Assembly: GCF_022842145.1 (NCBI RefSeq)
Contig: NZ_JALHQD010000005.1
Location: 124,001 to 188,000, forward strand
Origin: Tabrizicola sp.
GTDB lineage: Bacteria; Pseudomonadota; Alphaproteobacteria; Rhodobacterales; Rhodobacteraceae
Length of the DNA: 64,000 nt
Direction of reading: 5' to 3'
Shown here: positions 7,646 through 25,760 of the stretch, piece after piece
Numbering within the stretch: the stretch's first letter is position 1
Layout of the letters: every line of letters starts with the position of its first letter
Notes under the pieces: model-generated
What the model saw: only the letters and a program-made list of their open reading frames with translations
What the model was told of the DNA's origin: nothing
Database searches by the model: none
Program-made: the position numbers and the translations under genes

Positions 7646-7649
7646 GAGG

Positions 7650-8453: not shown

Positions 8454-8746
8454 CGCCAGTCCGGCCGCATGTACAGCGGGCGGCTTGGCGGCTCGCCAGC
8501 CTTCTGCATCACGCAGGACTCATAAACCGCCGCCGGGTCGCGACCCAGCAGGAAATCGGAACTCACGTTCAGCTCGAACGCCCCCGCAGTCCGCCCGTCC
8601 GAGCTTGCCCCGACCGACACCTCGCCCCGTGGCTGCTTGGCAAGCCGCGCACGCTCGAAGCACTGCCGTTCCGCCTGGGCCAGGGTCATCGGCCCGCAAC
8701 CGGCCAGTAGCGCGGGGACCATCAGCATCAGTGCAAACCGTTTCAT
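8450..8746 (-). CDS. Small lipoprotein
   Basis: A 98-residue envelope lipoprotein. The N-terminus MKRFALMLMVPALLAGCG is a short lipoprotein signal with the lipobox LAGC, so Cys17 should be lipidated. The mature part is hydrophilic with two further cysteines and no recognised domain. GGGAGAT lies 7 bases upstream of the ATG. It overlaps the methyltransferase start by 4 bases. It is one of three small lipoproteins between sdhA and sdhB. Confidence 0.75.
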   Translation of the reverse strand: MKRFALMLMVPALLAGCGPMTLAQAERQCFERARLAKQPRGEVSVGASSDGRTAGAFELNVSSDFLLGRDPAAVYESCVMQKAGEPPSRPLYMRPDWR

Positions 8747-8757
8747 CCCGATCTCCC

Positions 8758-9609: not shown

Positions 9610-9616
9610 CGCCCGG

Positions 9617-9946
9617 TCAGCCCACCACCGGCGGCACGCCACTGGCCGCAAAGCACGACTGGGCTGCAGGCCGCACCGCGATCTGCCGGATCGTCGCCTT
9701 GGTTGCAGTGCCCGCCTCGACACCCACGTCCCGGGCCAGAAGCTGCAATTCCTCCTGGCTTGCCGCATCCAGGATGCAGTTCGTGGCCAGCCGGGCAGGT
9801 TCCGCCGGCATGTCGATGTTGACCACCGGGAACACCACCGAATGCGCCGTCCGCTTCAGCGCGGAATCCACCAGTTCACCGGGGTCGCAGGCCGTCAGAA
9901 GCAGCACCGCCAAGAACGGCAGAAGCTTGATTGTCACCTTGTGCAA
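9617..9946 (-). CDS. Small lipoprotein (TTG start)
   Basis: A 109-residue lipoprotein with signal MHKVTIKLLPFLAVLLLTACD and lipobox LTAC. The TTG at 9946 has a perfect GGAGGAA Shine-Dalgarno 7 bases upstream. A GTG three codons later would be 16 bases from it, so TTG is favoured. The mature region has a further cysteine pair and ends in a proline-valine tail. No domain is recognised. It overlaps the preceding lipoprotein gene by 13 bases. Confidence 0.7.
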   Translation of the reverse strand: MHKVTIKLLPFLAVLLLTACDPGELVDSALKRTAHSVVFPVVNIDMPAEPARLATNCILDAASQEELQLLARDVGVEAGTATKATIRQIAVRPAAQSCFAASGVPPVVG

Positions 9947-10335
9947 TATCCCGTTCCTCCCTGCATGAGACCGCCGCCGCGCGAGCAAGACGAACCGGTG
10001 ACCGAGGCCGGACGGCTCGACTTCGGCAAAGCGGCGGCGGGCGATGCGGTGGCGGGCACGCCAGGTTGGCCTCCGTCGATGGTCCGGGCGATACAGGCGG
10101 TGGCAATGCGCGACTGCGCTTCGGTGACATTGGGCCCGGGGCGCACGATGAAGGTCATCCGGTCGTTTCTCAGTGTAGAGCTTGCCGAGTATGGTCCGGT
10201 GATCCCCGCCTCGCTGATGCAGGCCTGCATGGTCTCCTGAGTCAATCCGCCGTAGCTGCTGACACATCCGCCCAACAGACCCAGCCCTGCAATCACGGCA
10301 AGGCTATGTTTACCAAGAACCAGCACTCGGGACAT
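9934..10335 (-). CDS. Small lipoprotein directly after sdhA
   Basis: A 133-residue lipoprotein. The signal MSRVLVLGKHSLAVIAGLGLLGGC has lipobox LGGC. The mature part includes RNDRMTFIVRPGPNVTEAQSRIATACIA, then a low-complexity Ala/Pro linker and a Cys-containing basic tail. The ATG at 10335 is chosen over the TTG at 10341 because AGAGGAAG sits at proper distance; that site lies within the last codons of sdhA, 2 bases from its stop. Function unknown; cotranscription with sdhA is very likely. Confidence 0.72.
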   Translation of the reverse strand: MSRVLVLGKHSLAVIAGLGLLGGCVSSYGGLTQETMQACISEAGITGPYSASSTLRNDRMTFIVRPGPNVTEAQSRIATACIARTIDGGQPGVPATASPAAALPKSSRPASVTGSSCSRGGGLMQGGTGYCTR

Positions 10336-10337
10336 CT

Positions 10338-12140
10338 TCAAAACTTCCTCTCCGCGGGGGCGATCTTCGCCAATGCGATGCCGCCCTGGGCTTCGGTCGT
10401 CAGAGGTTCGGTATGGACCGCCCGGTAGTCAAGCATGACCTTGTCGCCATCGACCCAGGCCAGCGAGTGCTTGCGCCAGTTGACGTCGTCGCGCTGCGGA
10501 TGGTCCTCATGCGCATGCGCCCCGCGGCTTTCGGTCCGGGCATGCGCCCCGTAGATCGTCGCCAGCGCGTTCGGCATCAGGTTGGTCAGTTCCAGCGTCT
10601 CCATCAGGTCGCTGTTCCAGATCAGGCTGCGGTCAGTGACGTGCAGGTCGTTCATCTTGCCCGCAATCGCGGTCATCTTCTTCTCGCCCGCAGCCAGAGT
10701 CTCTTCGGCCCGGAACACCGCCGCATCGGCCTGCATGGTCCTCTGCATCTCCAGCCGCAGCTCTGCCGTCGGCACCGCTCCCTTGGCGTTCCGCAGGTCG
10801 TCGAACCGGCCCAGCGACTTGTCGACCTCGGCCGTGTTCGTCGCCGGAACGCTGGAGGCACGGTCCACCACCTGCCCCGCCCGGATCGCCGCCGCCCGGC
10901 CAAACACCACCAGGTCGATCAGGCTGTTCGAGCCCAGCCGGTTTGCGCCATGCACCGATGCACAGCCCGCCTCGCCCACCGCCATCAGGCCCGGGAAGAT
11001 CGCATCGGGGCGTTCGGCGGTCGGGTTCAGGACCTCGCCCCAATAGTTCGTCGGGATGCCGCCCATGTTGTAATGGACCGTCGGCAAGACCGGGATCGGC
11101 TCCTTGTGCAGGTCCACGCCCGCAAAGATCCGCGCGCTTTCGGTGATCCCCGGCAGCCGCAGTTCCAGCGCCTCACGCGGCAGGTGCGACAGGTTCAGGT
11201 GGATGTGGTCGCCGTTGGCCCCCACGCCCCGGCCTTCGCGAATCTCGATCGTCATGCAGCGGCTGACATAGTCCCGCGGCGCGAGGTCCTTGTAGTGCGG
11301 CGCATAGCGCTCCATGAACCGCTCCCCGGCAGAGTTGGTCAGATACCCGCCCTCGCCCCGCGCGCCTTCGGTGATCAGACAGCCCGAGCCGTAGATCCCC
11401 GTCGGGTGGAACTGCACGAACTCCATGTCCTGCAGCGGCAGGCCTGCGCGCGCCACCATCCCGCCGCCGTCCCCGGTGCAGGTATGCGCCGAGGTCGCGC
11501 TGAAATAGGCCCGGCCATAGCCGCCGGTCGCCAGCACCACCATCTTCGCGTTGAAGACATGGATCGTGCCATCGTCCAGTTTCCAGGCCACAACCCCGGT
11601 GCAGGCCCCATCGGTGATGATCAGGTCCAGCGCGAAGTATTCGATGTAAAATTCCGCGTTGTTCTTCAGGCTTTGGCCATACAGCGTATGCAGGATCGCA
11701 TGCCCCGTCCGGTCCGCCGCAGCACAAGTGCGCTGCACCGGCGGGCCGTTCCCGAACTCGGTCGTATGTCCGCCAAAGGGCCGCTGGTAGATCTTGCCCT
11801 CTTCGGTGCGCGAAAACGGCACCCCGTAATGCTCCAGTTCGTAAACCGCCTTCGGAGCCTCCCGCGCGAGGTACTCCATCGCGTCGGTGTCACCCAGCCA
11901 GTCCGACCCCTTCACGGTGTCGTACATGTGCCACTGCCAGTGGTCCGGCCCCATGTTACCCAGGCTGGCGGCAATCCCGCCCTGCGCCGCCACCGTGTGC
12001 GACCGGGTCGGGAAGACCTTGGTCACGCAGGCTGTCCGGAGGCCCTGCTCGGCCATGCCCAAGGTCGCGCGCAGACCGGCACCCCCGGCCCCCACCACAA
12101 CCACGTCATACTCATGCGTCTCGTACGGATAGGCAGTCAT
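10338..12140 (-). CDS. sdhA: Succinate dehydrogenase flavoprotein subunit
   Basis: SdhA oxidises succinate to fumarate with covalently bound FAD, linking the TCA cycle to the quinone pool. The 600-residue length is normal. Visible features are the dinucleotide fold [13 protein letters not shown], the FAD-attachment motif [12 protein letters not shown] with His48, the substrate region [26 protein letters not shown], and [20 protein letters not shown] near the FAD. Two adjacent ATG codons (12143 and 12140) are possible; the second is 7 bases from AAGGA. It follows sdhD by 11 bases. Confidence 0.97.
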
Positions 12141-12151
12141 CATCAGGTCCT

Positions 12152-12523
12152 TCACAGCGCCATGCGAGCCAGGGCGAACAGCCCCGTCGCGGCGATCACC
12201 CAGGAAAGCGCGATCACGAAGATGATCAGCAGCTTGCGATTGGTTCCCCGGGCATAATCCTCGATCATCGTTGTCGCGCCCATCGCGAAGTGACGCATCC
12301 CCACGACCAGCACCAGCGCGGTCAGGATCGCAGGCAGCGGTCGCGCGAACGTCTCCAGCACCGCCTCGCGGGTCCCGCCCAGGGCACTGCCGAAGATGTA
12401 AAGCCAAAGCGGCAGGAGGAAAGCCAGGCCAACGGACGAAACCGTCATCGCCCAGTGGTGCTCGGCCCCATGATGGGCGGCTCCACGACCTTCGGCACGC
12501 TTGCGGGGGGTCAAATAGCGCAT
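12152..12523 (-). CDS. sdhD: Succinate dehydrogenase membrane anchor subunit D
   Basis: A 123-residue membrane anchor of complex II with three predicted helices (starting near [31 protein letters not shown] and [21 protein letters not shown]). The segment [19 protein letters not shown] contains the His and the DY pair that in SdhD families contribute to haem b and ubiquinone binding. It lies 10 bases after sdhC and 11 bases before sdhA, in the canonical C-D-A order. Confidence 0.93.
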
Positions 12524-12533
12524 GGGGGCGTCC

Positions 12534-12941
12534 TCACTGAACCAGAAGAATTGTGATCACAGTCAGCACGACCGATCCGATGATGCAGACCCAACCCAGC
12601 TTTTCTGCCGTCGGGATGTCCAGCCCCTTGCCCGAATCGAAGTAAAGATGCCGCAGCCCGGCCAGGTAGTGGTACCACACCGCCCAAAGCGATCCGGTGA
12701 ACACCAGATCCCCGAACCAGCTGGTCGCCACCGCATCCGCCCGCGCGAAATAGGCGTCCGAGGTCGCGGCGGCCAGAAGCCACCACACCCCAAGGATAAC
12801 CCCCACCATCATCGCACTGCCGGTGATCCGGGTCAGGATGGAACTGACCGAGGTCATCTGGATGCGATAGACCTGCAGGTGCGGAGAAAGCGGGCGGGCC
12901 CCGGAACCTGATGCGGGAGCGGCCCGCTTTGCGTCTGCCAT
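12534..12941 (-). CDS. sdhC: Succinate dehydrogenase cytochrome b556 subunit
   Basis: A 135-residue haem-b-binding anchor subunit of complex II with three membrane helices. The family signatures RPLSPHLQVYR and SSILTRITG near the N-terminus and HYLAGLRHLYFD (likely haem ligand His98) are clear. It is the first gene of the minus-strand sdh operon. A pair of identical palindromes (13088-13118) lies about 147-177 bases upstream of its ATG and is the best candidate for operon control. Confidence 0.95.
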   Translation of the reverse strand: MADAKRAAPASGSGARPLSPHLQVYRIQMTSVSSILTRITGSAMMVGVILGVWWLLAAATSDAYFARADAVATSWFGDLVFTGSLWAVWYHYLAGLRHLYFDSGKGLDIPTAEKLGWVCIIGSVVLTVITILLVQ

Positions 12942-13087
12942 GATCGGTCCTCACGTCTGGCGGTGCTTAACATGGACCAGCACCGGGCTGTCTTTGGTAA
13001 TCTGAATAGCGCGGATTTCTCCGGTGTCACGCCACGAATGCCGCAATTGCAGCATGTTCCCGCTATCAGGTGCAGATTTCCCGGCTT

Positions 13088-13118
13088 TGTGATCACAGAT
13101 TTTCTACCTGTGATCACA
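13088..13118. promoter_or_regulatory. Two TGTGATCACA palindromes upstream of sdhC
   Basis: Perfect 10-bp palindromes TGTGATCACA at 13088-13097 and 13109-13118, exactly 21 bp apart (two helical turns). They lie in the 253-bp gap upstream of the sdh operon. The same motif with the same spacing occurs three times upstream of sucC. The symmetry, phase and shared context of the two operons argue for a cooperative transcription factor; its identity is unknown. Confidence 0.8.
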
Positions 13119-13194
13119 AGCTCGCCGCCAGCCGCATCCGTCCCGGATTCGCCCGCGGGGAAACCCCTCCGGACCTGACACGGCGCTGAACCCT

Positions 13195-13605
13195 TTAGCG
13201 CAAGTTCTCCATCACGATCTGCAGGTCGGTGTTCAGCGTGAACGAGATGACCCGGTGCCCATCCGGATTTGGCACGGCCAGCCAATAGCCGTACAGCGGC
13301 CCGGCCTTGCCGTTGAACATCACGACGTTCTGCACCATTCCGCCCAGGTCGCTGCGCTGCGCAATCGTGGAGCAACCCTCGAACCCGTCGGCATAGATGC
13401 CGGGCAGTCCGTTCAGACTATCCGCCAGATCGATGCCGATCTCGGTCTTGATCGCGGCGACGAAGCCGGCGACATCCAGATCCAGCATCATCTGGTTCAT
13501 CGTCTCGACCTTCTCGACCACCACGCCACCATCGGGCGCACAGCCCGCGGCCACCGCAACGGAGGGAGCAACGGCGACAAGACCAGCAAAGATCACGGCT
13601 TTCAT
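13195..13605 (-). CDS. Secreted hypothetical protein
   Basis: A 136-residue protein with a Sec signal peptide (MKAVIFAGLVAVAPSVAVAAG, cleavage after AVA), probably periplasmic. The mature part carries one cysteine near the N-terminus and one mid-sequence, which may form a disulfide, and ends with GYWLAVPNPDGHRVISFTLNT. No family is recognised. AAGGAAAAAG lies upstream of the ATG. It sits between mch and the sdh operon on the same strand, 58 bases after mch. Confidence 0.7.
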   Translation of the reverse strand: MKAVIFAGLVAVAPSVAVAAGCAPDGGVVVEKVETMNQMMLDLDVAGFVAAIKTEIGIDLADSLNGLPGIYADGFEGCSTIAQRSDLGGMVQNVVMFNGKAGPLYGYWLAVPNPDGHRVISFTLNTDLQIVMENLR

Positions 13606-13663
13606 TGGCTTTTTCCTTGGGTTGATCGAAACGCAGTTTCAGACGATCAGGATGCCGCGTCTG

Positions 13664-14686
13664 TCAGACCGGCACCAGCGCCCAATAGTCCAAATCCAGC
13701 AGAACGTCGGAAAGATACTTCCCGTCCGCCCCGCGCAATTCTCCCGCCGCCCCCTTCGTCGCCACCAGCCGCAGCCGCAGGGCCCCGACCGACGGCACCG
13801 CAGTCTCCGCCCGGTCCAGCACCTCGGACCAGGCCCGCACCGTGTCGCCCGCAAAGCACGGGTTGGCATGTGCGCCCGCGTTCAGCGCCACGATCATCTG
13901 CGCGTTCGCCAGCCCGCTGAACGACAGCGCCCGCGCTAGGCTGATGACATGCCCGCCATAGATCAGCCGCCGCCCATCCTCGCGCTGGCTGACGTCGAAA
14001 TGCACCTTCGAGGTGTTCTGCCAGAGCCGCGTCGCCAGCATGTGCTCGGCTTCCTCGATGGTCACCGCATCGACATGGTCGATCACCTCGCCCACCGCGT
14101 AATCGCCCCAGCGGTGCGGCTCACCGGCCAGCCCGAAGTCATAGGCGGAGAAATCCAGCCCCTCCGGCACCACCAGCGTCTCCACCGCCACCACCGGCGC
14201 AAGCTCCGGCACCGACACCGGCACCACCACCTCGCGCCGCCGTTTCCGCACCATCACCCAGCGCACATACTCCAGCACCACATCCCCGTGCTGGTTCAAC
14301 CCGCGCGTCCGCACCCAGACCACCCCCGTCGCCCCGGACGAGGTCTCCTTCAGCCCGATCACCTCGGATTCCGACCGCAAGGTATCCCCCGGCCAGACCG
14401 GCTTCAGCCAGCGGCCCTCGGCATACCCAAGGTTCGCCACCGCGTTCAGGCTGATATCCGGCACGGTCTTGCCGAACACCGTATGGAACGCCACCAGATC
14501 ATCCAGCGGCGAAGCCACCAGCCCCACGGACTTCGCAAACTCGTCCGAGGAATACAAAGCCCCCCGCGCCGGATACAGCGCATGATACAGCGCCCGCTCC
14601 CCCGCCCCCACCGTGCGCGGCACCGCGTGGCGGATCACCTCGCCCAGCCGGTAATCCTCGAAGAAGCGCCCCGGATTCGTCTTCAT
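13664..14686 (-). CDS. mch: Mesaconyl-CoA hydratase (beta-methylmalyl-CoA dehydratase)
   Basis: Mch interconverts mesaconyl-CoA and beta-methylmalyl-CoA in the ethylmalonyl-CoA pathway. The 340-residue protein has two MaoC/hot-dog halves. The N-terminal half includes GRFFEDYRLGEVIRHAVPRTV and ALYSSDEFAKSVG; the C-terminal half has RWGDYAVGEVIDHVDAVTIEEAEHM and LIYGGHVISLARALSF. The length and the double-domain plan match Mch of Rhodobacter. It is in an operon with a malyl-CoA lyase/thioesterase homolog and lies next to sdh, as I recall for R. sphaeroides. Its start overlaps the DUF1737 stop by 4 bases (ATGA). Confidence 0.9.
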   Translation of the reverse strand: MKTNPGRFFEDYRLGEVIRHAVPRTVGAGERALYHALYPARGALYSSDEFAKSVGLVASPLDDLVAFHTVFGKTVPDISLNAVANLGYAEGRWLKPVWPGDTLRSESEVIGLKETSSGATGVVWVRTRGLNQHGDVVLEYVRWVMVRKRRREVVVPVSVPELAPVVAVETLVVPEGLDFSAYDFGLAGEPHRWGDYAVGEVIDHVDAVTIEEAEHMLATRLWQNTSKVHFDVSQREDGRRLIYGGHVISLARALSFSGLANAQMIVALNAGAHANPCFAGDTVRAWSEVLDRAETAVPSVGALRLRLVATKGAAGELRGADGKYLSDVLLDLDYWALVPV

Positions 14687-14886
14687 TGCTCGCCCAGCTT
14701 CACATCCGGGTGGTAGTCACCCGCCACCTCTTTCACCACCGCCTGCCCGCAGCGCATGACGCCATTGGCCGCGTCGAAGGCGTAGGTCGGAGCGCCATGC
14801 AGCTCCCACCCCTTGTTCAGCGCCGCCGTCACCTTGTGACAGAAGGCCGAGGTGTCATCCGCACTCAAGAACCGATAGAGCTTCAC
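14683..14886 (-). CDS. DUF1737 domain protein (GTG start)
   Basis: A 67-residue protein matching the small DUF1737 family: KLYRFLSADDTSAFCHKVTAALNKGW, then an aromatic segment and a Val/Lys-rich tail. The GTG at 14886 has GGGGAG 8 bases upstream. A longer reading from 14985 would pass through a repeat element and is not credible. It is coupled to mch by a 4-base overlap. Function unknown. Confidence 0.78.
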   Translation of the reverse strand: MKLYRFLSADDTSAFCHKVTAALNKGWELHGAPTYAFDAANGVMRCGQAVVKEVAGDYHPDVKLGEQ

Positions 14887-14901
14887 GCCCCCATCTCCCC
14901 A

Positions 14902-14962
14902 GCTTTCATCTTTGCCAAAATATCCCACGGGGGTGTGGGGGTGTGAAACCCCCACTCCGACC
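14902..14962 (+). repeat. AAATATCCC-type structured repeat, copy 1
   Basis: Begins CTTTCATCTTTG, then AAAATATCCCACGGGGGT, then a stem with arms GTGGGGGT and ACCCCCAC. It closely matches the copy at 36689-36746, with compensatory changes in the outer stem pairs. It fills the gap between the NnrU-like gene and DUF1737. Confidence 0.75.
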
Positions 14963-15508
14963 TCAACCCCAGGGCGGCACGCCAAGCCAGTTGTGCACCA
15001 GCATGATCGCGACCAGCACGACGACGGCCCCGACCACGGCGCCCACTTCCTTGCCCACCGGTGCAGGCTCCGGCAACGGCCCGCGCGGCACCGCCTTGTT
15101 GATCAGGATCACCTCCACGACCGCCCAGGCCAGGATGCCTCCAAACAGGATCACCGACGCCAGGTCCCCGTTGACCAGCAAATGCCCGATCGCCCAGGTC
15201 TTCACCGCCGTCAGCTGCGGATGCCGGATCACACGGGTGATCCGCGTCTTCATGCCCGAGGCCGCGTAAAGGTAGACCGCGAAGAACATCAGCAGGTTGT
15301 TCACATGGGTCAGGAACGCCGGCGGATACCACAGGTCGATGTGCTCCACGCCGCGGTAGCCCACGACCATCAGCACCACGCCCGCCAGCACGCCGACCGT
15401 CACCAGCCCCTTGCCCGCGTTCCCCATGGCGTCCCGCGACCCCGGAGCCAGCCGCTTCCACAGATGCGCCGCCCACCACAGTGCCAATCCCAGAACAATC
15501 AACGTCAT
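14963..15508 (-). CDS. NnrU-family membrane protein
   Basis: A 181-residue integral membrane protein with about five helices. It resembles NnrU (isoprenylcysteine methyltransferase-like fold), with HLWKRLAPGSRDAMG, THVNNLLMFFAVYLYAASG and the HPQLTAVKTWAIGHLLVNGD motif that is typical of the family. NnrU was named for its link to nitrite/nitric oxide reduction, but no denitrification gene is here, so that role is doubtful. It lies 39 bases after the malyl-CoA enzyme gene. Confidence 0.85.
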   Translation of the reverse strand: MTLIVLGLALWWAAHLWKRLAPGSRDAMGNAGKGLVTVGVLAGVVLMVVGYRGVEHIDLWYPPAFLTHVNNLLMFFAVYLYAASGMKTRITRVIRHPQLTAVKTWAIGHLLVNGDLASVILFGGILAWAVVEVILINKAVPRGPLPEPAPVGKEVGAVVGAVVVLVAIMLVHNWLGVPPWG

Positions 15509-15547
15509 CGCAGGCCTCCAGCCGGTTCATCGGCGTGCACCCTGCCT

Positions 15548-16393
15548 TTAAACCGCAACCGCCGCAATCGCCTCGGCCTTCCCGATCAGCGCCTCGGCCG
15601 TTGCCACATGCAGGTTCTCGACGATCTTGCCGTCCACCACCGCCACGCCCTCACCCCGCGCCCGCGCCTCGGCAAAGGCCGCGATCTGGCGGCGGGCCAA
15701 AGCGACCTCCTCCTCGGTCGGGGCAAAGACCTCGTTCGCCACGACAAGCTGCGCCGGATGGATCAGCGTCTTGCCGTCAAACCCCATGTCGCGCCCCTGC
15801 TCGCACTCCGCCCGCAGCCCGGCCTCGTCCTTGAAGGCGTTGAACACCCCATCGACGATCACGCGCCCCTCGGCCCGCGCTGCCAGCACGCAAGCCCCCA
15901 GCCCCGCCATCAGCGGCAACCGGTCGCTGCGAAACCGCGCGCCCAACTCCTTTGCCAGGTCGTTGGTCCCCATGACCATCCCCTCCAGCCGAGGATGCGC
16001 CGCAATCGCCCCCGCGTTCAGACAGCCCTTCGCCGTCTCCAGCATCGCCCAGAGCGGGGCCTTCACCTGCCCTGCAACTGCATCCAGATCGGCCCCGGAG
16101 TTCACCTTCGGCACCAACACCGCATCCACCCCCGGATGCGCCCCGAACGCCGCCAGATCGCCTGCGACCCACTCGGTCCCCAGCCCGTTGATCCGCACGA
16201 TCCGCGCCCGCGGCCCATAGTCCGCACGGTCAAGAACCGATGCCAGCAACTCCCGCGCCCGCACCTTCTCCTCGGGCGAGACAGCATCCTCCAGATCGAA
16301 GATGATCGCGTCCGCCGCCAGCTCCCGCGCCTTCTCCAAGGCCCGCTCGCGCGAGGCCGGAATATACAGAACGGACCGATAGGGACGCGTCAC
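15548..16393 (-). CDS. mcl2: CitE-like (3S)-malyl-CoA thioesterase / malyl-CoA lyase
   Basis: A CitE-superfamily enzyme of 281 residues that starts at GTG 16393. Visible motifs are RSVLYIPASRERALEKA, IIFDLEDAVSPEEK (Mg2+-site acidic residues), ARIVRINGLGT, LVPKVNSGADLD, AMLETAKGCLN and DGKTLIHPAQL. Two paralogs of this family act in Rhodobacter: Mcl1 (lyase, about 318 residues) and Mcl2 (malyl-CoA thioesterase, about 285 residues). The short length and position beside mch and sdh match mcl2 as I recall it in R. sphaeroides. A lyase activity cannot be excluded. It heads the operon with NnrU, DUF1737 and mch. Confidence 0.78.
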   Translation of the reverse strand: MTRPYRSVLYIPASRERALEKARELAADAIIFDLEDAVSPEEKVRARELLASVLDRADYGPRARIVRINGLGTEWVAGDLAAFGAHPGVDAVLVPKVNSGADLDAVAGQVKAPLWAMLETAKGCLNAGAIAAHPRLEGMVMGTNDLAKELGARFRSDRLPLMAGLGACVLAARAEGRVIVDGVFNAFKDEAGLRAECEQGRDMGFDGKTLIHPAQLVVANEVFAPTEEEVALARRQIAAFAEARARGEGVAVVDGKIVENLHVATAEALIGKAEAIAAVAV

Positions 16394-16572
16394 GACTCAC
16401 CTCCGCGCAACATTCTTGCGCTTGAAAGCACGGATCGGACACAAACGGCAAGCCCAAATCCGCCGCAGCGCAGAAAGATCGTGCATTCGCAGCGCAACCC
16501 GCCCGCCCCGTTAACCGCCCGTCATACCTCCCGCGGCAGCCTTGGCCCGTCCAAAGCCAGCAAGGCCCGCCC

Positions 16573-16881
16573 ATGACCCAGCAGATGTTTGCCCTCTCCT
16601 TTGGCCTCGCCGCCGTCCTCGCCGCAACCCAGATCGCCCACTCCGCCCCGCAATGCGACCGGCGCGAAACCGTTACCGCGCTCCTCGCCGACCGCTACAA
16701 CGAGACCAGCCGCGCGGTCGGTATCGCAGGCCAGGGCGCGGTGATGGAGCTTTACGCCGCCGAAACCGGCACCTGGTCGATCACCATGACCCTCCCCGAC
16801 GGAACGATGTGCCTGATGGCCTCCGGCTCGAACTACGAGACGGTGGCCGAGGACCTCCCCGCAAAGGGTGACCCGGCCTGA
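16573..16881 (+). CDS. Secreted hypothetical protein
   Basis: A 102-residue protein with a signal peptide (QQMFALSFGLAAVLAATQIAHSA, cleavage probably before PQC). The mature domain has one cysteine at each end and the segment GTWSITMTLPDGTMCLMASG, a small beta-rich fold seen in several short periplasmic proteins of Rhodobacteraceae. Function unknown. Its 3' end overlaps the convergent Ada-domain gene by 49 bases. Confidence 0.7.
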   Translation: MTQQMFALSFGLAAVLAATQIAHSAPQCDRRETVTALLADRYNETSRAVGIAGQGAVMELYAAETGTWSITMTLPDGTMCLMASGSNYETVAEDLPAKGDPA

Positions 16882-17087
16882 AGGTGGCACCGCTTGCAGG
16901 CCCGGAACCCCGCCGCCTGACACGCCTCGGCAAAGGCGCGAAACTCCACGTTCCGCCGCAAGGGCGTCCGCGCCGGGCAGGTCATCCGGCAGAAGATCCC
17001 CGTCGTCTTCACACAGACGAGGACGTCGGGAAACCGCCCATCCCGCGCGACAAGACTTTCGTAAAGCGCATCCGCATCCGGCAGCAT
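16833..17087 (-). CDS. Stand-alone Ada-type zinc-binding domain
   Basis: An 84-residue protein consisting almost only of the Ada N-terminal zinc domain. The signature TTGIFCRMTCPAR...FRACKRC gives cysteines C33, C37, C64 and C67, equivalent to the four zinc ligands of E. coli Ada, one of which accepts methyl groups from phosphotriesters. The usual AraC DNA-binding and O6-methylguanine-DNA methyltransferase domains are missing and no second ORF follows. AGGGAGGG lies 5 bases upstream of the ATG, which supports expression. It could be a methylation sensor or a leftover domain. Confidence 0.8.
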   Translation of the reverse strand: MLPDADALYESLVARDGRFPDVLVCVKTTGIFCRMTCPARTPLRRNVEFRAFAEACQAAGFRACKRCHLQAGSPFAGRSSATVS

Positions 17088-17230
17088 CGACACCCTCCCT
17101 GAAGCGCATCCCCGGTTACGGGCGTCCCCTCCCCACCGGGAAACCGGGCCAGCCCAAGGGGCCCATCCCGACCCTTGCACACCGCCGCAGAAAGGTCTGC
17201 CCTCCAAGCCGCGAACCCGCAGGATCCGGG

Positions 17231-17980
17231 TCAGATCAGCCCCCGCGCCCCGTCCCAGATCAGCTTCAGCGAGATCAGCGCCAGCGCCCAGACCACCAGC
17301 CGGAAGAACAGCTTTTCCGGCATCAGATGCACCAGCCGCACGCCCGCAAAGACCGCGATCACCGCGGGCAAGGCCAGCACTGCCGCAACCTTCAGGTTCC
17401 CGGTATTCAACTGCCCCAGCGCATAATAGGGGATCAGCTTCACCGCATTGATGATCGCAAAGGCAATCGTCGTGGTCCCCGCGAACACCGCCTTCGTCAT
17501 GCCCAGCGGCAGCGTATAGACCTGATAGGGCGGCGCGCCCGCATGGCTCACGAAACTCGTGAACCCCGCCACCCCGCCCCAGAACAGGCCCGGGGCGACC
17601 TCGGCCCGCTTCGGTTCCACCACCGCCGGCTTGCGCAAAAGGATGTTGGCCGCAAAGGCCAGCCCGATCACCCCGACCAGCAGAGTCACCGCCGCCTCCG
17701 GCACCACGCTCGCCGTGGCCCAACCGACCCCGATCCCGACGATCGCCCCCGGCACCACGATGGTCAGCACCCGCCCGTCCCAGGCATGGCGGTAGGCGTA
17801 AAGCCCGAAGATGTCCGACACCACGTAGACCGGCAGCAGAAGCCCCGCCGCCATCACCGGGTTGATCACCAGCGCCAGAACCGGCACCCCCAGCATGCCC
17901 ACCACCGGAACGCCGCCCTTCGACATCCCGACCAGCGCCGCCGCCACCAAGGCCGCAATCCAGAATCCGATCTCTTCCAT
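17231..17980 (-). CDS. TauE/SafE-family (TSUP) permease
   Basis: A 249-residue membrane protein with about eight helices, of the TSUP family that exports sulfite, sulfoacetate or other organic anions. Typical features are the N-terminal GMSKGGVPVVGMLGVP, the inverted second half starting near LFWGGVAGFTSFVSHAGAPP and the final GARGL tail. The ATG at 17980 is preceded by GGAGGG at a good distance; an upstream start at 18046 is less likely. The substrate is unknown. It is divergent from mdh. Confidence 0.9.
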   Translation of the reverse strand: MEEIGFWIAALVAAALVGMSKGGVPVVGMLGVPVLALVINPVMAAGLLLPVYVVSDIFGLYAYRHAWDGRVLTIVVPGAIVGIGVGWATASVVPEAAVTLLVGVIGLAFAANILLRKPAVVEPKRAEVAPGLFWGGVAGFTSFVSHAGAPPYQVYTLPLGMTKAVFAGTTTIAFAIINAVKLIPYYALGQLNTGNLKVAAVLALPAVIAVFAGVRLVHLMPEKLFFRLVVWALALISLKLIWDGARGLI

Positions 17981-18018
17981 CGCGCCCTCCGCACCAGTTA
18001 CCGCTAACCCCTTCTCCC

Positions 18019-18059
18019 CCGGCCCGAAAGCCGGAATTTTTCGCATACAATGGTATACC
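18019..18059 (+). promoter_or_regulatory. Hairpin with T-run and GGTATACC palindrome upstream of mdh
   Basis: On the plus strand CCGGC-CCGAAA-GCCGG (18019-18034) is followed by AATTTTT, the shape of an intrinsic terminator. An 8-bp palindrome GGTATACC at 18052-18059 follows. Both lie in the gap between the divergent TSUP gene and mdh, about 90-130 bases before mdh. They could be an attenuator and an operator, or a terminator for upstream transcription; no function is shown. Confidence 0.4.
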
Positions 18060-18093
18060 GTGGCCGCCCCAAGACTGGACAGACGCCCGATAA

Positions 18094-19110
<1,017 letters not shown>

Positions 19111-19142
19111 CACGCGCCCTCTGGTGCGACATACCTGACCTT

Positions 19143-19168
19143 GAATGCGCAGCCCCGGCTGCGCATTC
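19143..19168 (+). terminator. Terminator after mdh
   Basis: Perfect hairpin with arms GAATGCGCAGCC (19143-19154) and GGCTGCGCATTC (19157-19168), followed by TTCATTT. It lies 33 bases after the mdh stop and before the next gene on the same strand, so it is probably an intrinsic terminator. Confidence 0.7.
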
Positions 19169-19209
19169 TTCATTTCAGCCGCAGTAAATGCCCCAGTGAA
19201 AGGTTGCCC

Positions 19210-20418
19210 GTGAAAGCCGCCCTCGTCGCCCTTCTGGCCCTCGCATCCCCCGCCGCCGCCCAGACCCTGTCCGACGAGATCGGCGCGAACGGCATCGCCC
19301 CCACGCTTTCCCGGCTGAAAGCCCAGCCCGAACCCGCGCTCGAGGATATCTTTGCCATCGGGGGGCTTCACTTCCTCGGCGCCGTCGAACGCGCGCTGCA
19401 GCTGCAATGGCGTACTGGGGCGGATCAGGTCACCGGCAACGCGGGCGACACGCTGGGTCTGCCGTTCCTGCGCCTGCCCGTGCCGCCCAACCCCGCACCC
19501 GAACCCTTCAACGGCGCGCTTGTCACCCAGTTTTTCACCGACATCGACGGCGACATGGCCGCCGCCCGCGCCGCCCTTGCCACCCTGCCTGAAGGTGAGG
19601 ACTTCGGTCTCCAGCTTACCTTTGCCGACCTCTGGTTCGACGTGAACCTGAACGGCGCCCGCGAGCCAGACGAGGACGCGCTTGCCATCCTCGGCCCTCA
19701 GCTTCTGGGCTGGCAGTGGCAGGACCGCGACCCTGCCACCCCGCCGCTGACCATTCGCTTCGACGCTGCTGATGCCGCCTGGCTGACCGCCTACACCCAT
19801 GTCATGTCCGGCATGGCGAACATCGTCCTCGCCTATGACCCCGCCGCCAGCATCGACCGCGTCATCGCGTCCCGCATCGCGCTGAAGGTGGCGCCGCCCT
19901 CGACCGACGCCTTCAACTTCGACGCCTCCTTCGGCCAGTTCCTTGACGCCTTCGCCATGCTGGAAGGTGCCGTGAACCAGCAACCGGACGCCGCCCGCGC
20001 CAAGGCCGCGAAAGAGCATTTCCTGGCGATGATCGCCGAAAACCGCCGCTTCTGGGCCCTCATCGCCGCCGAGACGGACAACGACCGCGAATGGGTCCCG
20101 AACGACACCCAGACCTCGGCGCTTGGCCTCGTCCTGCCCCCCGGCACCGGCAACACCTGGCTTGGCGTCCTGGCCGATGGCGAGGCGCTCCTCCAGGGCC
20201 GCCTCCTCATCCCCTATTGGCGCGGCCCCGAAGGCCAGGGCATCAACCTCGGCCGCATGTTCGACGACCCCGCTCCGATCTCGATCACCGGCTGGCTCCA
20301 GGGCTGGGCCGCCGTCCCCTACCTGGACCAGGGCCCGACCGTGACCCCCACCAGCCTGCGCCAGTTCGAAGGCCTGATGGGCGGCAATGCCGGATTGATG
20401 ATGGTCTTCCTGAACTGA
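19210..20418 (+). CDS. Secreted protein with EF-hand-like loop (paralog A)
   Basis: A 402-residue protein of unknown function with a signal peptide (MKAALVALLALASPAAAQ), so likely periplasmic. GTG at 19210 is chosen because AAAGG lies 6 bases upstream. A loop DVNLNGAREPDED at residue 144 onward looks like a calcium-binding EF-hand/dockerin loop. Other marked blocks are ALEDIFAIGGLHFLGAVERA, ENRRFW near the middle, ETDNDREWVPND, and PGTGNTWLGVLADGE. The gene at 21655 is a clear paralog with these blocks in the same order. A duplication is likely. No known enzyme motif is seen. Confidence 0.85.
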   Translation: MKAALVALLALASPAAAQTLSDEIGANGIAPTLSRLKAQPEPALEDIFAIGGLHFLGAVERALQLQWRTGADQVTGNAGDTLGLPFLRLPVPPNPAPEPFNGALVTQFFTDIDGDMAAARAALATLPEGEDFGLQLTFADLWFDVNLNGAREPDEDALAILGPQLLGWQWQDRDPATPPLTIRFDAADAAWLTAYTHVMSGMANIVLAYDPAASIDRVIASRIALKVAPPSTDAFNFDASFGQFLDAFAMLEGAVNQQPDAARAKAAKEHFLAMIAENRRFWALIAAETDNDREWVPNDTQTSALGLVLPPGTGNTWLGVLADGEALLQGRLLIPYWRGPEGQGINLGRMFDDPAPISITGWLQGWAAVPYLDQGPTVTPTSLRQFEGLMGGNAGLMMVFLN

Positions 20419-20448
20419 CCCGGAAATCGCGGCGGGCCAGACCCGCAA

Positions 20449-20550
20449 CTCTTTCACATTTGCCCAAATATCCCCGCCGGAGGCACGCCCGAGCCTGTCG
20501 CGCCCTTCGCGCGACAGGCGAGACAAGGTCTTGCGCCGCAAGGCGCTCCT
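20449..20550 (+). repeat. AAATATCCC-type structured repeat, copy 2
   Basis: CTTTCACATTTGCCCAAATATCC leads into CGCCGGAGGCACGCCCGAG and a stem with arms CCTGTCGCGC (20494-20503) and GCGCGACAGG (20509-20518) around the loop CCTTC. GCGAGACAAGG and AAGGCGCTC follow. The same architecture follows paralog B with a different stem. The rest of the 341-base gap up to 20760 shows no convincing gene. Confidence 0.8.
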
Positions 20551-20759
20551 TTGAAAAACCGCCCGAACCCCCGCGAACTGCGGTCCAATCCAGGTCGCGG
20601 CACGCAATTAAAGCGTTAACATCTCCCTAACACCGACGCCCAACCCCTTGATTTTACTCACCCGGCAATGCGCCCCACACGTGGCGCCCACGCCCCCCCT
20701 TGCCCCCCGCCCACAAATCCGGCATCCCCAAGTCCCACACATCCCCCGGAGGGACCTCC

Positions 20760-20942
20760 ATGGACTACTCGAAATCCGGCAACCCCAAGGGCACCCGCCA
20801 CACCCTGCGCGGCCCAGACCACAGCCAGAAGGGCGGACCGAAGTCGGTCACCCCCCCGCGCGAGACGAAGGAACAGCTTCTCGCCCGCATGAAAGCCGCC
20901 GCCGCCGAGAAGAAAGCCGCCAAGTCGGACGACAAGGCCTGA
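20760..20942 (+). CDS. Small basic hypothetical protein
   Basis: A 60-residue, lysine- and glycine-rich soluble protein: MDYSKSGNPKGTRHTLRG, then a central proline stretch, and a helical tail LLARMKAAAAEKKAAK. CCGGAGGGA precedes the ATG at good distance. It resembles short conserved proteins seen in Rhodobacteraceae, but no function is known. It ends in TGA that overlaps a CTG which may start the methyltransferase. Confidence 0.65.
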   Translation: MDYSKSGNPKGTRHTLRGPDHSQKGGPKSVTPPRETKEQLLARMKAAAAEKKAAKSDDKA

Positions 20943-21589
20943 CCAGGCTTTCTTCCCCCTACCTCGCCCCCGGCTTCTATGACGAGGCGATCGCGAAAGG
21001 CCGCCACCGCGACATTGTCGGCGGCCGCTGGGACGAGACCGCCCGCGTCCAGATGGCCGCCCTGACGGCCGCAGGCATGACCCCCGAGGATCACCTCCTC
21101 GACATCGGCTGCGGCTCGCTCCGCCTCGGCCACAAGGCCGTCCCCTTCCTTCGCCCCGGCCATTACTGGGGCACCGACGCCTCCCTCGCCCTGATGCGGC
21201 ACGGCAGGCTCACCGAACTCCCCGACCCCGAGGTCCTCCACGAAGACCACCTGATCGAGGACGCGGACTTCGCCTTCCCCGGCGTCCCCGACAGCATCAC
21301 CCTCGCCATCGCCTTCGGCGTCTTCACCCACCTCCCCCACGCCGACCTGCAAACCGCCCTCACAAACCTCCGCCGCTTTCCCAACCTCCGCAGCGTCCTC
21401 TTCACCGTCTTCCTTTCCGACGCCCCCACCTCAACCCGCCAGCCCGACGGCGTCGTCACCCACCCCGACCGCCCGCCCTACCACGTCCCCGAAGCCCGGG
21501 TCGCCCGGGCCATCGGCAACGCAGGCTTCACCCCGACCAGACACCCGACCCTCCTCCCCCGTGGCCAGGTCCTCTGGACCGCCACATAA
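20939..21589 (+). CDS. Class I SAM-dependent methyltransferase
   Basis: A roughly 216-residue methyltransferase: glycine-rich LLDIGCGSLRLGHKAVPFL (SAM motif I), GHYWGTDASLALM, and AIAFGVFTHLP. The frame is open far upstream but no good ATG, GTG or TTG stands near the conserved start. The only candidate in the right place is CTG at 20939, overlapping the TGA of the small gene before it (CTGA). The TTG at 20648 would add about 97 residues of low-complexity basic sequence. The start is therefore uncertain. The substrate is unknown. Confidence 0.72.
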   Translation: MTRLSSPYLAPGFYDEAIAKGRHRDIVGGRWDETARVQMAALTAAGMTPEDHLLDIGCGSLRLGHKAVPFLRPGHYWGTDASLALMRHGRLTELPDPEVLHEDHLIEDADFAFPGVPDSITLAIAFGVFTHLPHADLQTALTNLRRFPNLRSVLFTVFLSDAPTSTRQPDGVVTHPDRPPYHVPEARVARAIGNAGFTPTRHPTLLPRGQVLWTAT

Positions 21590-21654
21590 GGGCTTCCCCA
21601 CCTTGCGCGACCCAGTTCCCGCCGCCACACTCGCCTGAACCAACCGGAGGCCCC

Positions 21655-22836
21655 ATGCGCACTCTCGCCATAGCCCTGCTCCTCGCGACACCCCTTTCCG
21701 CCGAAACCATCTCCGAGGAAATCGCCCGCACCGGCCTCGCCCCGACCGAAGCGCGCCTCGCCGCCCTCCCTACCCCCACCAACGAGGACCTCTTCGCCCT
21801 CGCAGGCCTCCACTTCCTCGGCGGCGTCGAACAGGCCCTGCAACTGCGCTGGCAGACCGGAGTGAAAGCCGACTGGTCCGAGCTTCCGATCCTCCGTCTC
21901 CCGATCCCGGAAAACCCCGATGCCATCCCCTTCCAGGCCGCCGATTTCACCGCCCTGATCCGCAACCTCGACGCCGACATGGACGCCTCCCGCGCGGCCC
22001 TGACCCAGCTTGGCGACAAGCCCTTCGCCCTGCCGATCCGGATCGCCGACCTCTGGTTCGACATCAATGCCAACGGCACCCGCGAAGCCGGGGAAAGCTT
22101 GGCCGAGGTCACCGGCATGGCCCTCGGCGGCGGGCGCGGCAACGGCGTCGCGGTCGAGGATCCCACCATCACCTTCGACACCGCCGACGCCGCCTGGCTG
22201 GCCGCCTACACCCACTTCCTCTCGGGCTTCGCCTCCACCGCGCTTGCCTACGACCCCGAACCCGCCATCCAGCGTGTCATCGACTCGTCGAAGGCCATCT
22301 ATGCGCTCTGGGGCGACACGCCGCCCAAGAACGCGATGGACATGATGTTCGGCCGCCAGGTCGACCGCGCCGCGATGGCCCTGCACGCGCTCTCGACCAC
22401 TCCCGACAAGGCGCTGGCGCAAGACGCCCACGGCCATTTCCTCGGCATGATCGAAGAGAACCGCCGCTTTTGGTCACTCGTGGCGCTGGAAACCGACAAC
22501 ACCGGCGAATGGGTCCCGAACGACGCCCAGGTTTCCGGCCTTGGTCTCACCATGCTCCCCGGCACCGGCGAACGCTGGCAGGCTGTCCTGGCCGACGCCG
22601 AGAAGCTCCTGAAGGGCGAAGTCCTGATCCCGCACTGGCGCTTCGGGGCCGAGGCGGGGATCAACCTGAATAAGGCCTTCGAAAATCCGCCCGCCATCGA
22701 CCTCGTCACCTTCATCCAGGGCGAAGGCCTCCTACCCTACGCCGAGAAGGGCCCGCAGATGTCGATGCAGTCCTGGCGCGACTTCGAGGATTTCGTCCAG
22801 GGCGACGCGATGCTGTTCGCCGTCTTCCTGAACTAA
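21655..22836 (+). CDS. Secreted protein with EF-hand-like loop (paralog B)
   Basis: A 393-residue paralog of the protein at 19210-20418, with a signal peptide (MRTLAIALLLATPLSAE). It shares the same order of blocks: LFALAGLHFLGGVEQA, DLWFDINANGTREAGE (EF-hand-like loop from residue 136), TADAAWLAAYTH, ENRRFWSLVALETDNTGEWV and PGTGERWQAVLAD, ending in VFLN like paralog A. An ATG with CCGGAGG upstream gives the start. Function unknown; both copies look intact, so both may be in use. Confidence 0.87.
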   Translation: MRTLAIALLLATPLSAETISEEIARTGLAPTEARLAALPTPTNEDLFALAGLHFLGGVEQALQLRWQTGVKADWSELPILRLPIPENPDAIPFQAADFTALIRNLDADMDASRAALTQLGDKPFALPIRIADLWFDINANGTREAGESLAEVTGMALGGGRGNGVAVEDPTITFDTADAAWLAAYTHFLSGFASTALAYDPEPAIQRVIDSSKAIYALWGDTPPKNAMDMMFGRQVDRAAMALHALSTTPDKALAQDAHGHFLGMIEENRRFWSLVALETDNTGEWVPNDAQVSGLGLTMLPGTGERWQAVLADAEKLLKGEVLIPHWRFGAEAGINLNKAFENPPAIDLVTFIQGEGLLPYAEKGPQMSMQSWRDFEDFVQGDAMLFAVFLN

Positions 22837-22841
22837 GCCAT

Positions 22842-22950
22842 TCATCTGTCCCCAAATATCCCCTGCGGAGCACGCCGAGCCTCTCGTGCGTCCTTCACGC
22901 ACGAGGGGCGAGACAAAAGGCCTTCGCGCCTGCCAAGGCGCTCAATCTGA
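22842..22950 (+). repeat. AAATATCCC-type structured repeat, copy 3
   Basis: CATCTGTCCCCAAATATCCCC is followed by GCGGAGCACGCCGAG and a stem with arms CCTCTCGTGCGT (22880-22891) and ACGCACGAGGGG (22897-22908) around the loop CCTTC, then GCGAGACAA and AAGGCGCTC. The flanks match the copy at 20449 while the stem differs in a compensating way. Confidence 0.8.
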
Positions 22951-22968
22951 TAACCGCCCCGACCGGGC

Positions 22969-24294
22969 TCAGCGCAAACCGTCCAGAACCGTCTCCAGCG
23001 TCGCCACCAGCTTGTCGGCGATCTCGTCCAGCTCGGCATCCGTCGCGTTGAACGGCGGCGCCAGGATCACCGTATCCCCCGCCGACCCGTCGACGTGCCC
23101 GCCCGAGGGATAGCAGATCAGCCCCCGCCGCAAACCTTCCGCCCGGATGCGCCCGTTCACCCCCAGGCTCGCATCGAACGGCACCTTCGTCTCCGGGTCC
23201 GCCACCAGCTCGACCCCGATGAAATACCCGCGCCCGCGAACCTCTCCGACCCCCGGAAGATGCTCCATCCGCGCCCGCAGGTCCGACCGCCAGCGCGGTC
23301 CCTTGTCCCGGATGCGGGCCAGCAACCCCTCTTCCGCGACGATCTTCTGCACCGCCACCCCGGCCGCCAGGCAAGCCGTGTGCCCGGTATAGGTATGCCC
23401 CGTCAGCGGCCCGCCATGCCCCACCGCCATGACGTCCGCGATCTCTTGTGTGTAGATCGCAGCCCCCAGCGGCAGGTAGCCGCCCGACAGCGACTTCGCC
23501 ACGGTGATGATGTCCGCCGTGATCCCGTCCTCCTCGGACGCGCGCCAGACCCCGGTGCGTCCCGATCCGCACATCACCTCGTCGCAGATCACCAGCACCC
23601 CATGCCGCCGACAGACCTCGGCCACCGCGCGCCCATACCCCTCCGGCGCAGGCAAAGCCCCGCCCGCCGCGCCCACCACCGGCTCGAAGATGAACCCGGC
23701 CACCGTCTCGGGCCCCAACCGGACAATCTCCGCCTCCAGCTCGGCCGCCAGATGCGCGACCAGCCCTTCCGCCGTCACCCCCTCGGGAAGACGATAGGTA
23801 TTTGCCGCACTCACCCGGCCCACGTCCGGCAAGGCCCCCGCAAATGCCCGCTGCCGGTCCTCGAACCCCGACAACGCCGTCGCCATCAGCGTGTTGCCAT
23901 GCCACGACCGCTGCCGCGCGATGAACTTCACCCGCGCCGGATCACCCCGGTCAAAGTGATACTGCAGCGCGATCTTCACCGCGCTTTCCACCGCCTCGGA
24001 CCCGCTGCTGGTATAGACCATGTCCGCCAGCCCCGTGGCCCGGCACAGGATCTCGCTCATCTCCTCCAGCGGGTCGGACGAGAAGAGATACCGGTAGCCA
24101 TAGGCCACCCGTTCCATCTGCTTGGCCACCGCCTCGTTGACCCGGGGATCGCCGTGCCCGACGGAGAACACCGCCGGCCCGCCCGACCCGTCGATGTATT
24201 GCCGCCCCTCCACGTCCCACAGGTAGACGCCCCGCCCGTGGCTGATCTTCGGCAGGCGGTCTTGCGTGATGTCATTGGCGCTTGGGCGTGGCAT
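22969..24294 (-). CDS. Class III aminotransferase
   Basis: A 441-residue PLP-dependent aminotransferase of the ornithine/GABA aminotransferase fold. Visible are [37 protein letters not shown], the PLP-binding acidic motif [16 protein letters not shown] and the Schiff-base lysine in [15 protein letters not shown]. The amino donor is not clear; beta-alanine, taurine or adenosylmethionine-8-amino-7-oxononanoate are conceivable. It is divergent from sucC, with the 24398-24449 palindrome array between them, so the array might act on it too. Confidence 0.9.
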
Positions 24295-24397
24295 GCTGGG
24301 CTCCTTGTCAGACCACAGGCTTCGCAAGCGCTCCGATCCTTGTCAATGTCGCCACCACTACGGTGATTCGCACGTGCTACTTGCGTTACCGCCACCA

Positions 24398-24449
24398 TGT
24401 GATCACGCTTTTCCAAACTGTGATCACACTTTTCACGCCTGTGATCACA
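24398..24449. promoter_or_regulatory. Three TGTGATCACA palindromes upstream of sucC
   Basis: TGTGATCACG (24398-24407), TGTGATCACA (24419-24428) and TGTGATCACA (24440-24449) stand at exact 21-bp steps, with 11-bp spacers that each contain a short T-rich run. They are 118-169 bases upstream of the sucC ATG. Motif and period match the pair upstream of sdhC. Confidence 0.82.
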
Positions 24450-24566
24450 TCTTCCATTTTCCCGGCATTTCCTCCGCATTACAGGCATTTGCTGTTTGGA
24501 ACACGCGCGAACCCGTGCCAGAACCCCCCAGACCACTTCCCGGCCGTCAAATCCAAGAGGCGCCCC

Positions 24567-25760
24567 ATGAACATTCACGAATACCAGGCGAAGGCGCTTC
24601 TGCGCAGCTACGGCATCCCGGTTTCGGACGGCCGTGTCGTCCTGAAGGCCGAAGACGCCAAGACCGCCGCCGGAGAGCTTGACGGACCGCTCTGGGTGGT
24701 CAAATCCCAGATCCACGCCGGGGGCCGCGGCAAGGGTCACTTCAAGGAACCCGAAGCTGGCGAAAAGGGCGGCGTCCGCCTTGCCCGCAGCGTCGGTGAA
24801 GCCGCCGAATTCGCCCGCCAGATGCTGGGCCGCACCCTTGTCACCATCCAGACGGGTGCTGCAGGCAAGCAGGTCAACCGCATCTACATCGAAGACGGCT
24901 CCGACATCGACCGCGAGTTCTACCTCGCCCTCCTGATCGACCGGCAGACCAGCCGCATCTCGATCGTCGCTTCGACCGAAGGCGGCATGTCGATCGAGGA
25001 TGTCGCCCACGACACGCCGGAGAAGATCCACACCTTCACCATCGACCCAGCCACCGGCCTGCAGGACTTCCACGGCCGCCGCGTCGCATTCGCTCTGGGA
25101 CTGACCGGCGCGCACGTGAAATCCTGCGTTGGGATCGTCAAGAAGCTGTACCAGATGTTCGTCGAAAAAGACATGGACATGCTGGAGATCAACCCCTTCT
25201 GCGTCCTGAAAGACGGCACCCTGCGGCTTCTGGATGCCAAGATGGCTTTCGACGGCAACGCGATGTACCGCCACGCCGACATTGCCGCCCTGCGGGACGA
25301 GACCGAGGAAGACCCGAAGGAACTCGCCGCCTCCAAATTCGACCTGAACTACATCGCGCTGGATGGCGAGATCGGCTGCATGGTCAACGGCGCGGGCCTT
25401 GCGATGGCCACGATGGATATCATCAAGCTCTACGGGGCAGAGCCCGCCAACTTCCTCGACGTCGGCGGTGGCGCCACGAAGGAGAAGGTCACCGAGGCCT
25501 TCAAGATCATCACCTCCGACCCGCAGGTGAAGGGCATCCTTGTCAACATCTTCGGCGGCATCATGCGCTGCGACATCATCGCCGAAGGCGTGATCGCGGC
25601 GGTGAAGGAAGTCGGCCTCAAGGTTCCGCTGGTCGTCCGTCTGGAGGGCACCAACGTGGAACTCGGCAAGGACATCATCCGAAAGTCCGGTCTGAACGTG
25701 ATCGCAGCCGATGACCTGAAGGATGGCGCCGAGAAGATCGTGAAGGCCGTGAAGGGATGA
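24567..25760 (+). CDS. sucC: Succinyl-CoA synthetase beta subunit
   Basis: The ATP-grasp subunit of succinyl-CoA synthetase (ADP-forming), which couples succinyl-CoA hydrolysis to ATP synthesis in the TCA cycle. The 397-residue protein starts with [19 protein letters not shown]. It shows the ATP-grasp lysine region [25 protein letters not shown], the metal-site [13 protein letters not shown] and [14 protein letters not shown] near the C-terminus. AAGAGG lies 6 bases upstream of the ATG. It is the first gene of the suc operon and is followed by a 4-base overlap with a lipoprotein gene. Confidence 0.97.

Follow-up and report, generated by a model that had tools for sequence, protein, structure and literature searches.

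The GntR-type regulator AkgR (RSP_0981) of Rhodobacter sphaeroides is reportedly a direct activator of tricarboxylic acid (TCA) cycle genes, according to the abstract of the 2015 AkgR paper. Predicted targets given for RSP_0981 in the available passages of PMC4344238 are sucCD, sdh and the downstream alpha-ketoglutarate dehydrogenase genes. Passages of a second paper (PMC6365646) name AkgR a transcriptional activator, identify GTGATCAC among its binding sites and propose that another GntR regulator, PS417_07240 (32% identical), probably also uses GTGATCAC. The PS417_07240 type, known from deoxyribonate clusters, shares the core palindrome and differs in its target genes, and the same passages describe one palindrome for it, not tandem sites. 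Here we analysed a stretch of 64,000 nucleotides from Tabrizicola sp. (contig NZ_JALHQD010000005.1, positions 124,001 to 188,000; hereafter the window), in which arrays of palindromes in 21-bp steps precede both the succinate dehydrogenase operon sdhCDAB and the operon sucCD-AB. As the best overall explanation, these arrays are in all likelihood AkgR operators, and an AkgR dimer would activate both operons from phased tandem sites. The locus shares its targets and the GTGATCAC core with the AkgR system of R. sphaeroides, from which it differs in that akgR is on a contig other than that of sdh and suc.

The palindrome TGTGATCACA was present in five perfect copies in the genome of 4,333,412 bases, all of them inside the window, and the reversed-pattern control in none. 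Two copies were upstream of sdhC, two upstream of sucC and one within the sdhC coding sequence. With up to one mismatch, the window held six matches against a mean of 0.85 in shuffled sequence, and six were reached in none of 100 shuffles; on the plus strand of the whole genome there were 20 such places versus 4 for the control. The coordinates of the five upstream sites, their 21-bp steps and their distances to the ATGs, as given in a preliminary description of this DNA, were correct on rechecking (Table 1). Its statement that the window held no further copy was not, as the perfect copy inside sdhC makes a sixth site. We treated this copy as a coding coincidence and rejected it as an operator, because 12 of 71 genomes had GTGATCAC within the sdhC coding sequence and its place there varied. 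The preliminary description had also held that the motif, if common elsewhere in the genome with 21-bp spacing and without relation to carbon genes, would speak against its proposal. Perfect copies and the 21-bp pair were confined to the window; elsewhere in the genome no tandem pair was found with up to two mismatches, and one three-mismatch match was on contig C2. Fourteen one-mismatch sites outside the window were considered as possible other targets, of which the six with the GTGATCAC core were located. Five of these were in open frames of at least 150 codons and the sixth was in an apparent coding stretch, which is weak evidence because open frames are long everywhere in GC-rich DNA. The sites were nearly exclusive to the sdh and suc operons.

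The exact pair, defined as TGTGATCAC-N12-TGTGATCAC, was found in 152 of 198 family genomes drawn evenly, and the reversed control in 0 of 198. In a class-wide draw of 385 genomes, five matched: this genome, three of the four other family members and one of 380 genomes from other families. SucC matches were present in 193 of the 198 family genomes. The upstream regions of 80 of these 193, together with the window, gave 81 stretches; the selection was not random, the regions having been chosen mostly by SucC similarity and supplemented by hand with complete genomes and with genomes negative for the exact pair. Within these regions, pairs were searched at a step of 19–23 bp, allowing each site at most two mismatches, and sdhC was located in 71 of the 81 stretches. 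Conservation in relatives, on which the preliminary description had made its proposal depend, held for both operons. A pair preceded sucC in 78 of 81 stretches (21 bp in 68, 20 bp in 9 and 22 bp in 1) and sdhC in 67 of 71 (21 bp in 61, 20 bp in 6), and both operons carried it in 67 of 71 genomes. Of the 80 regions, 14 were negative for the exact pair, and 11 of these 14 still held a pair if up to two mismatches were tolerated. Few stretches had a third sucC site like that of the window (2/81, up to one mismatch). The order sdh operon, mch, mcl, mdh, sucC was largely preserved across the regions. In column logos of the rows with a 21-bp step (68 sucC, 61 sdhC), the 8-bp core was nearly invariant, and it was spacerless in almost every aligned row. 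The columns from −30 to −5 upstream of the pair were almost free of information and so served as an internal control against relatedness alone explaining the conservation of the core.

The genome encoded 25 GntR-domain matches, none of them on the contig of the window. One of these genes, L067 (genome G000, contig C1, 94105–94749, minus strand), contained PF00392 (GntR, N-terminal winged helix) and PF07729 (FCD, C-terminal), both above the cut-offs. Its predicted model had a mean predicted local distance difference test score (pLDDT) of 89.2 and the GntR-then-FCD fold order. The fold matches in the PDB were GntR regulators: McbR/YncC of Escherichia coli (4p9f) was the best match by structure and sequence, the DNA complex of E. 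coli NanR (6wfq), another GntR/FCD regulator, was among the matches, and FadR–DNA complexes were found further down the list. McbR/YncC has other targets, and we know of no relation of this protein to TCA-cycle genes. NanR binds cooperatively to tandem repeats; its repeat is a different one with a shorter step, and it acts as a repressor. L067 was 82% identical to its ortholog in genome G051, which is from the same genus as Cereibacter ovatus and which we presume to be R. sphaeroides 2.4.1. In G051, sdhC is followed by sdhD, sdhA, two small frames, sdhB, one further frame and the GntR gene, in line with the tags RSP_0974 to RSP_0981. Because of this agreement in position and gene order, we take L067 as the putative AkgR ortholog. 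A frame starting MPK(A/E)EWGTKRICPTTGKRFYDL adjoins akgR both here and in G051 (G000 C1:94105-94749 and L093), and this common neighbour supports the orthology. Orthologs of L067 were located just behind sdhB in 4 of the 81 sdh–suc regions, that of G051 among them. The protein that binds the arrays is very probably AkgR. The preliminary description had mentioned AkgR and CceR, linking neither to the motif. AkgR is now the best candidate, and CceR is unlikely because its published predicted motif, [AGT]GTT-N6-8-AAC[ACT] in the available passages of PMC4344238, is absent from TGTGATCACA, which has neither GTT nor AAC.

Further ties between akgR and the site came from three comparisons. When named genomes were scanned with six orthologs, 572 related stretches were returned; the best 80 served as akgR loci. 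Genes of sdh or suc were present in 47 of these 80, and a site was placed 18–35 bp before the aligned akgR coding start in 23. In a separate set of 30 akgR loci, a site was present 17–63 bp before the start in 7. In these relatives, the single upstream site suggests that AkgR may also restrain its own gene. In the second comparison, the exact pair was present in 149 of 177 family genomes with akgR versus 3 of 21 without (Fisher p = 1.5e-10), where presence of akgR was scored at an E-value threshold of 1e-50 that was set after the values had been seen and to which G033 and G122 came close. Without G172 (no SucC match) and G021 (51% paralog), the akgR-less set comprised 19 genomes whose sucC upstream regions were read; 16 of these had no pair, and three of the 16, G017, G157 and G109, had one degenerate site close to its normal position. 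On a SucC tree, akgR changed 10 times and the array 7 times. In the third comparison, the only match from another family, locus L035, was beside the gene of a GntR protein 32% identical to L067, which also speaks for AkgR as the binder. As a side observation, the loci L131 (G101), L133 (G167) and L134 (G109) represent family members that keep sucC and have neither akgR nor the array.

The DNA between array and promoter was examined over the 45 bases after the proximal site, anchored on that site and without gaps. In each operon, A/T tracts recurred there every 9.5–10 bp (power 54.7 and 39.6). By comparison, 1000 shifts gave null maxima of 4.0 and 3.3, and the sequence ahead of the array had a power of 2.7 and 3.6. 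After thinning to rows less than 60% identical (65 and 59 rows), the power was 54.2 and 38.9 with null maxima of 6.3 and 2.5. The A/T-tract profiles of the two operons correlated at 0.78 without lag. Measured from the start of the proximal site, the position of the best sigma70-like −35 match peaked at 57 bases for sucC (24 of 78 promoters within one base) and at 68 bases for sdhC (31 of 67), with at most 11 in shuffles for either operon. The difference of 11 bases makes the gap between array and predicted −35 one helical turn longer at sdhC than at sucC. In the window's own sequence, no convincing −10 was found behind the candidate −35 of sucC.

In the mechanism proposed as the most likely, one AkgR (GntR/FCD) dimer would bind each spacerless palindrome. 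A step of 20–22 bp corresponds to two turns, which would place neighbouring dimers on the same helix face. The preliminary description had proposed a cooperative dimeric regulator that coordinates sdh with suc. A single dimeric regulator acting at phased tandem sites indeed best accounts for this coordination; adjacent dimers probably bind cooperatively, a property suggested by the spacing alone. The array-bound dimers would activate the promoters of sdhCDAB and sucCD-AB over a fixed distance with a tolerance of whole turns, a role for which activation itself is taken from the literature. Contact would probably be made through the C-terminal domains of the RNA polymerase alpha subunit, seated on the phased A/T tracts between the array and the −35, and we infer that activation by tandem dimers depends on helix face. 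The tracts have another explanation with a nearly even chance, namely that they are intrinsically bent DNA or a surface for a nucleoid protein and not docking places for alpha domains, as a 10-bp period is equally compatible with intrinsic curvature. The tracts near −43, −53, −62, −73 and −82 do coincide with known places of alpha-domain docking, a weak counterargument given that the transcription starts were guessed from the predicted −35. More tentatively still, the whole stretch from array to −35 may be a single conserved activation scaffold, with tandem AkgR dimers at its distal end and about five A/T minor-groove steps, each one helical turn from the next, on which the alpha domains would line up. 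The promoter could then be moved by whole turns, as in the one-turn shift of sdhC relative to sucC, and not by half turns.

Repression of sdh and suc by AkgR from the same arrays, relieved by a metabolite, is improbable. Many GntR/FCD proteins are repressors. The 2015 abstract is said to describe activation. Activation is also what the available passages of PMC6365646 ascribe to AkgR, and the arrays are well upstream of the predicted −35 elements and do not overlap them.

Several observations weigh against the assignment of the arrays to AkgR and against the promoter layout. No site preceded the gene in 57 of the best 80 akgR loci, and this genome's own akgR, part of the 30-locus set, had none before its start. 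The array was kept in 3 of the 21 genomes scored akgR-less, G019, G096 and G114; two of these are 91% and 77% complete, and G114 is in 320 contigs. A control GntR regulator, L049, was also associated with the array, more weakly than akgR (126/150 genomes with L049 versus 26/48 without, p = 5.7e-5), and was found close to sdh in 3 of the 81 regions. On well-supported branches of the SucC tree there were only 3 independent pairs, too few and not significant, in which the array changed the same way in 1.7 of 3 on average and never the opposite way; relatedness may in part underlie the co-occurrence. In Cereibacter ovatus, C. flavus, R. capsulatus and R. viridis, akgR was outside the fetched sdh regions. 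The predicted −35, a consensus match, coincided with the peak in no more than 24 of 78 sucC and 31 of 67 sdhC promoters. L049 itself was rejected as the binder; it was absent from 26 array-positive genomes.

There is a slim chance that a different GntR/FCD regulator binds the arrays, or that AkgR does so together with a paralog such as L070, this genome's next closest GntR to the akgR orthologs. The array without detected akgR in three genomes would fit this explanation. So would the use of GTGATCAC across a wider GntR subfamily, as indicated by the available part of PMC6365646 and by locus L035, the sole match from another family. There, the array had a TonB-receptor-like frame on one side and, on the other, the gene of the 32%-identical GntR/FCD protein with an SDR dehydrogenase behind it. 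Tandem GTGATCAC-type sites at 965–1030 followed ~21-bp steps, and further degenerate sites extended the array with a similar spacing. In the order of the GntR/FCD gene and the SDR dehydrogenase, L035 resembles the PS417_07240-type clusters as far as these are described in the passages of PMC6365646, and it has tandem 21-bp sites. Against another binder stand the site before akgR itself in both sets of loci and the linkage of akgR to the target operons, while the one-mismatch copy nearest L070 was ~0.9 kb before that gene in an apparent coding stretch. A CRP/FNR-family regulator on fused half sites, the likeness raised in the preliminary description, is very probably not involved: the TGTGA/TCACA half sites do resemble those of CRP, but in a CRP/FNR operator a central spacer of about 4–6 bp separates the half sites, the 8-bp core here is spacerless, and the neighbouring gene, the own-promoter site and the co-occurrence indicate a GntR-type operator.

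Table 1. Positions in the window of the AkgR-type sites, promoter elements and genes of the sdh and suc operons.
Feature	Position	Strand	Remarks
Putative AkgR-type operator, sdhC array, distal site TGTGATCACA	13109..13118	-	start −177 from sdhC ATG
Putative AkgR-type operator, sdhC array, proximal site TGTGATCACA	13088..13097	-	start −156 from sdhC ATG
Third, most distal site of sucC array TGTGATCACG	24398..24407	+	one mismatch; start −169 from sucC ATG
Putative AkgR-type operator, distal site of conserved sucC pair TGTGATCACA	24419..24428	+	start −148
Putative AkgR-type operator, sucC array, proximal site TGTGATCACA	24440..24449	+	start −127
Perfect 10-mer copy within sdhC coding sequence	12552..12561	-	probably no operator
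A/T-tract train, sdhC array to −35	13037..13088	-	hand-placed; conserved columns from alignment
sdhC tracts	13086-13088, 13076-13079, 13064-13066, 13054-13058, 13045-13048, 13037-13039	-	
Candidate −35 of sdhC, GTGACA	13025..13030	-	consensus match; 67 bases after proximal-site start, at family-wide peak
Candidate −10 of sdhC, TATTCA	13003..13008	-	consensus match; 16 bp after candidate −35
A/T-tract train, sucC array to −35	24456..24490	+	hand-placed; conserved columns from alignment
sucC tracts	24456-24460, 24467-24470, 24478-24481, 24487-24490	+	
Candidate −35 of sucC, TTGGAA	24496..24501	+	consensus match; 56 bases after proximal-site start, beside family-wide peak
sdhC	12534..12941	-	open frame; named from known family features and syntenic matches
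sdhD	12152-12523	-	open frame; named as sdhC
sdhA	10338-12155	-	open frame; named as sdhC
sdhB	6869-7693	-	open frame; named as sdhC
sucC	24567..25760	+	open frame; first in row sucC-sucD-sucA-sucB; putative assignment
sucD, sucA, sucB	27861, 28815, 31807	+	open frames; putative assignments

Two intervals within the gene order of the window contained additional frames. The gap of ~2.6 kb between sdhA and sdhB held several small lipoprotein-like frames and a glycosyltransferase- or capsule-like frame (8450–10338, minus strand); the corresponding gap in G051 held two small frames only. Between mdh and sucC were two similar frames of ~425 and 393 amino acids (19141–20418 and 21655–22836, plus strand), which probably represent a gene for a secreted protein that was duplicated in tandem.

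The regulator, the core motif and the targets are already in print. The published AkgR passages available to us (PMC4344238, PMC6365646) mention neither a strict tandem step nor a third sucC site, phased A/T tracts or a whole-turn difference between promoters. A search of the available literature returned no paper on the tandem step, the A/T phasing or the whole-turn difference, part of which the primary AkgR paper may contain; one hit for TGTGATCACA, in a Sphingobium paper, was part of a primer. The promoter layout, with A/T tracts phased at ~10 bp and a gap one turn longer at sdhC, is possibly the new part. With AkgR as their very probable binder, the arrays gain a named regulator and a family-wide promoter design that leaves little freedom, with a fixed step, phased A/T tracts and a whole-turn difference between promoters. 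A regulon confined to sdh and suc, plus akgR in some relatives, would be a clean system for studying activation at a distance by GntR/FCD regulators, because sdh and suc encode consecutive enzymes of the TCA cycle. The tandem-site rule may locate AkgR-like regulons elsewhere, as in L035. If the scaffold is real, its helix face and the length of its rail would govern a two-operon regulon throughout the family.

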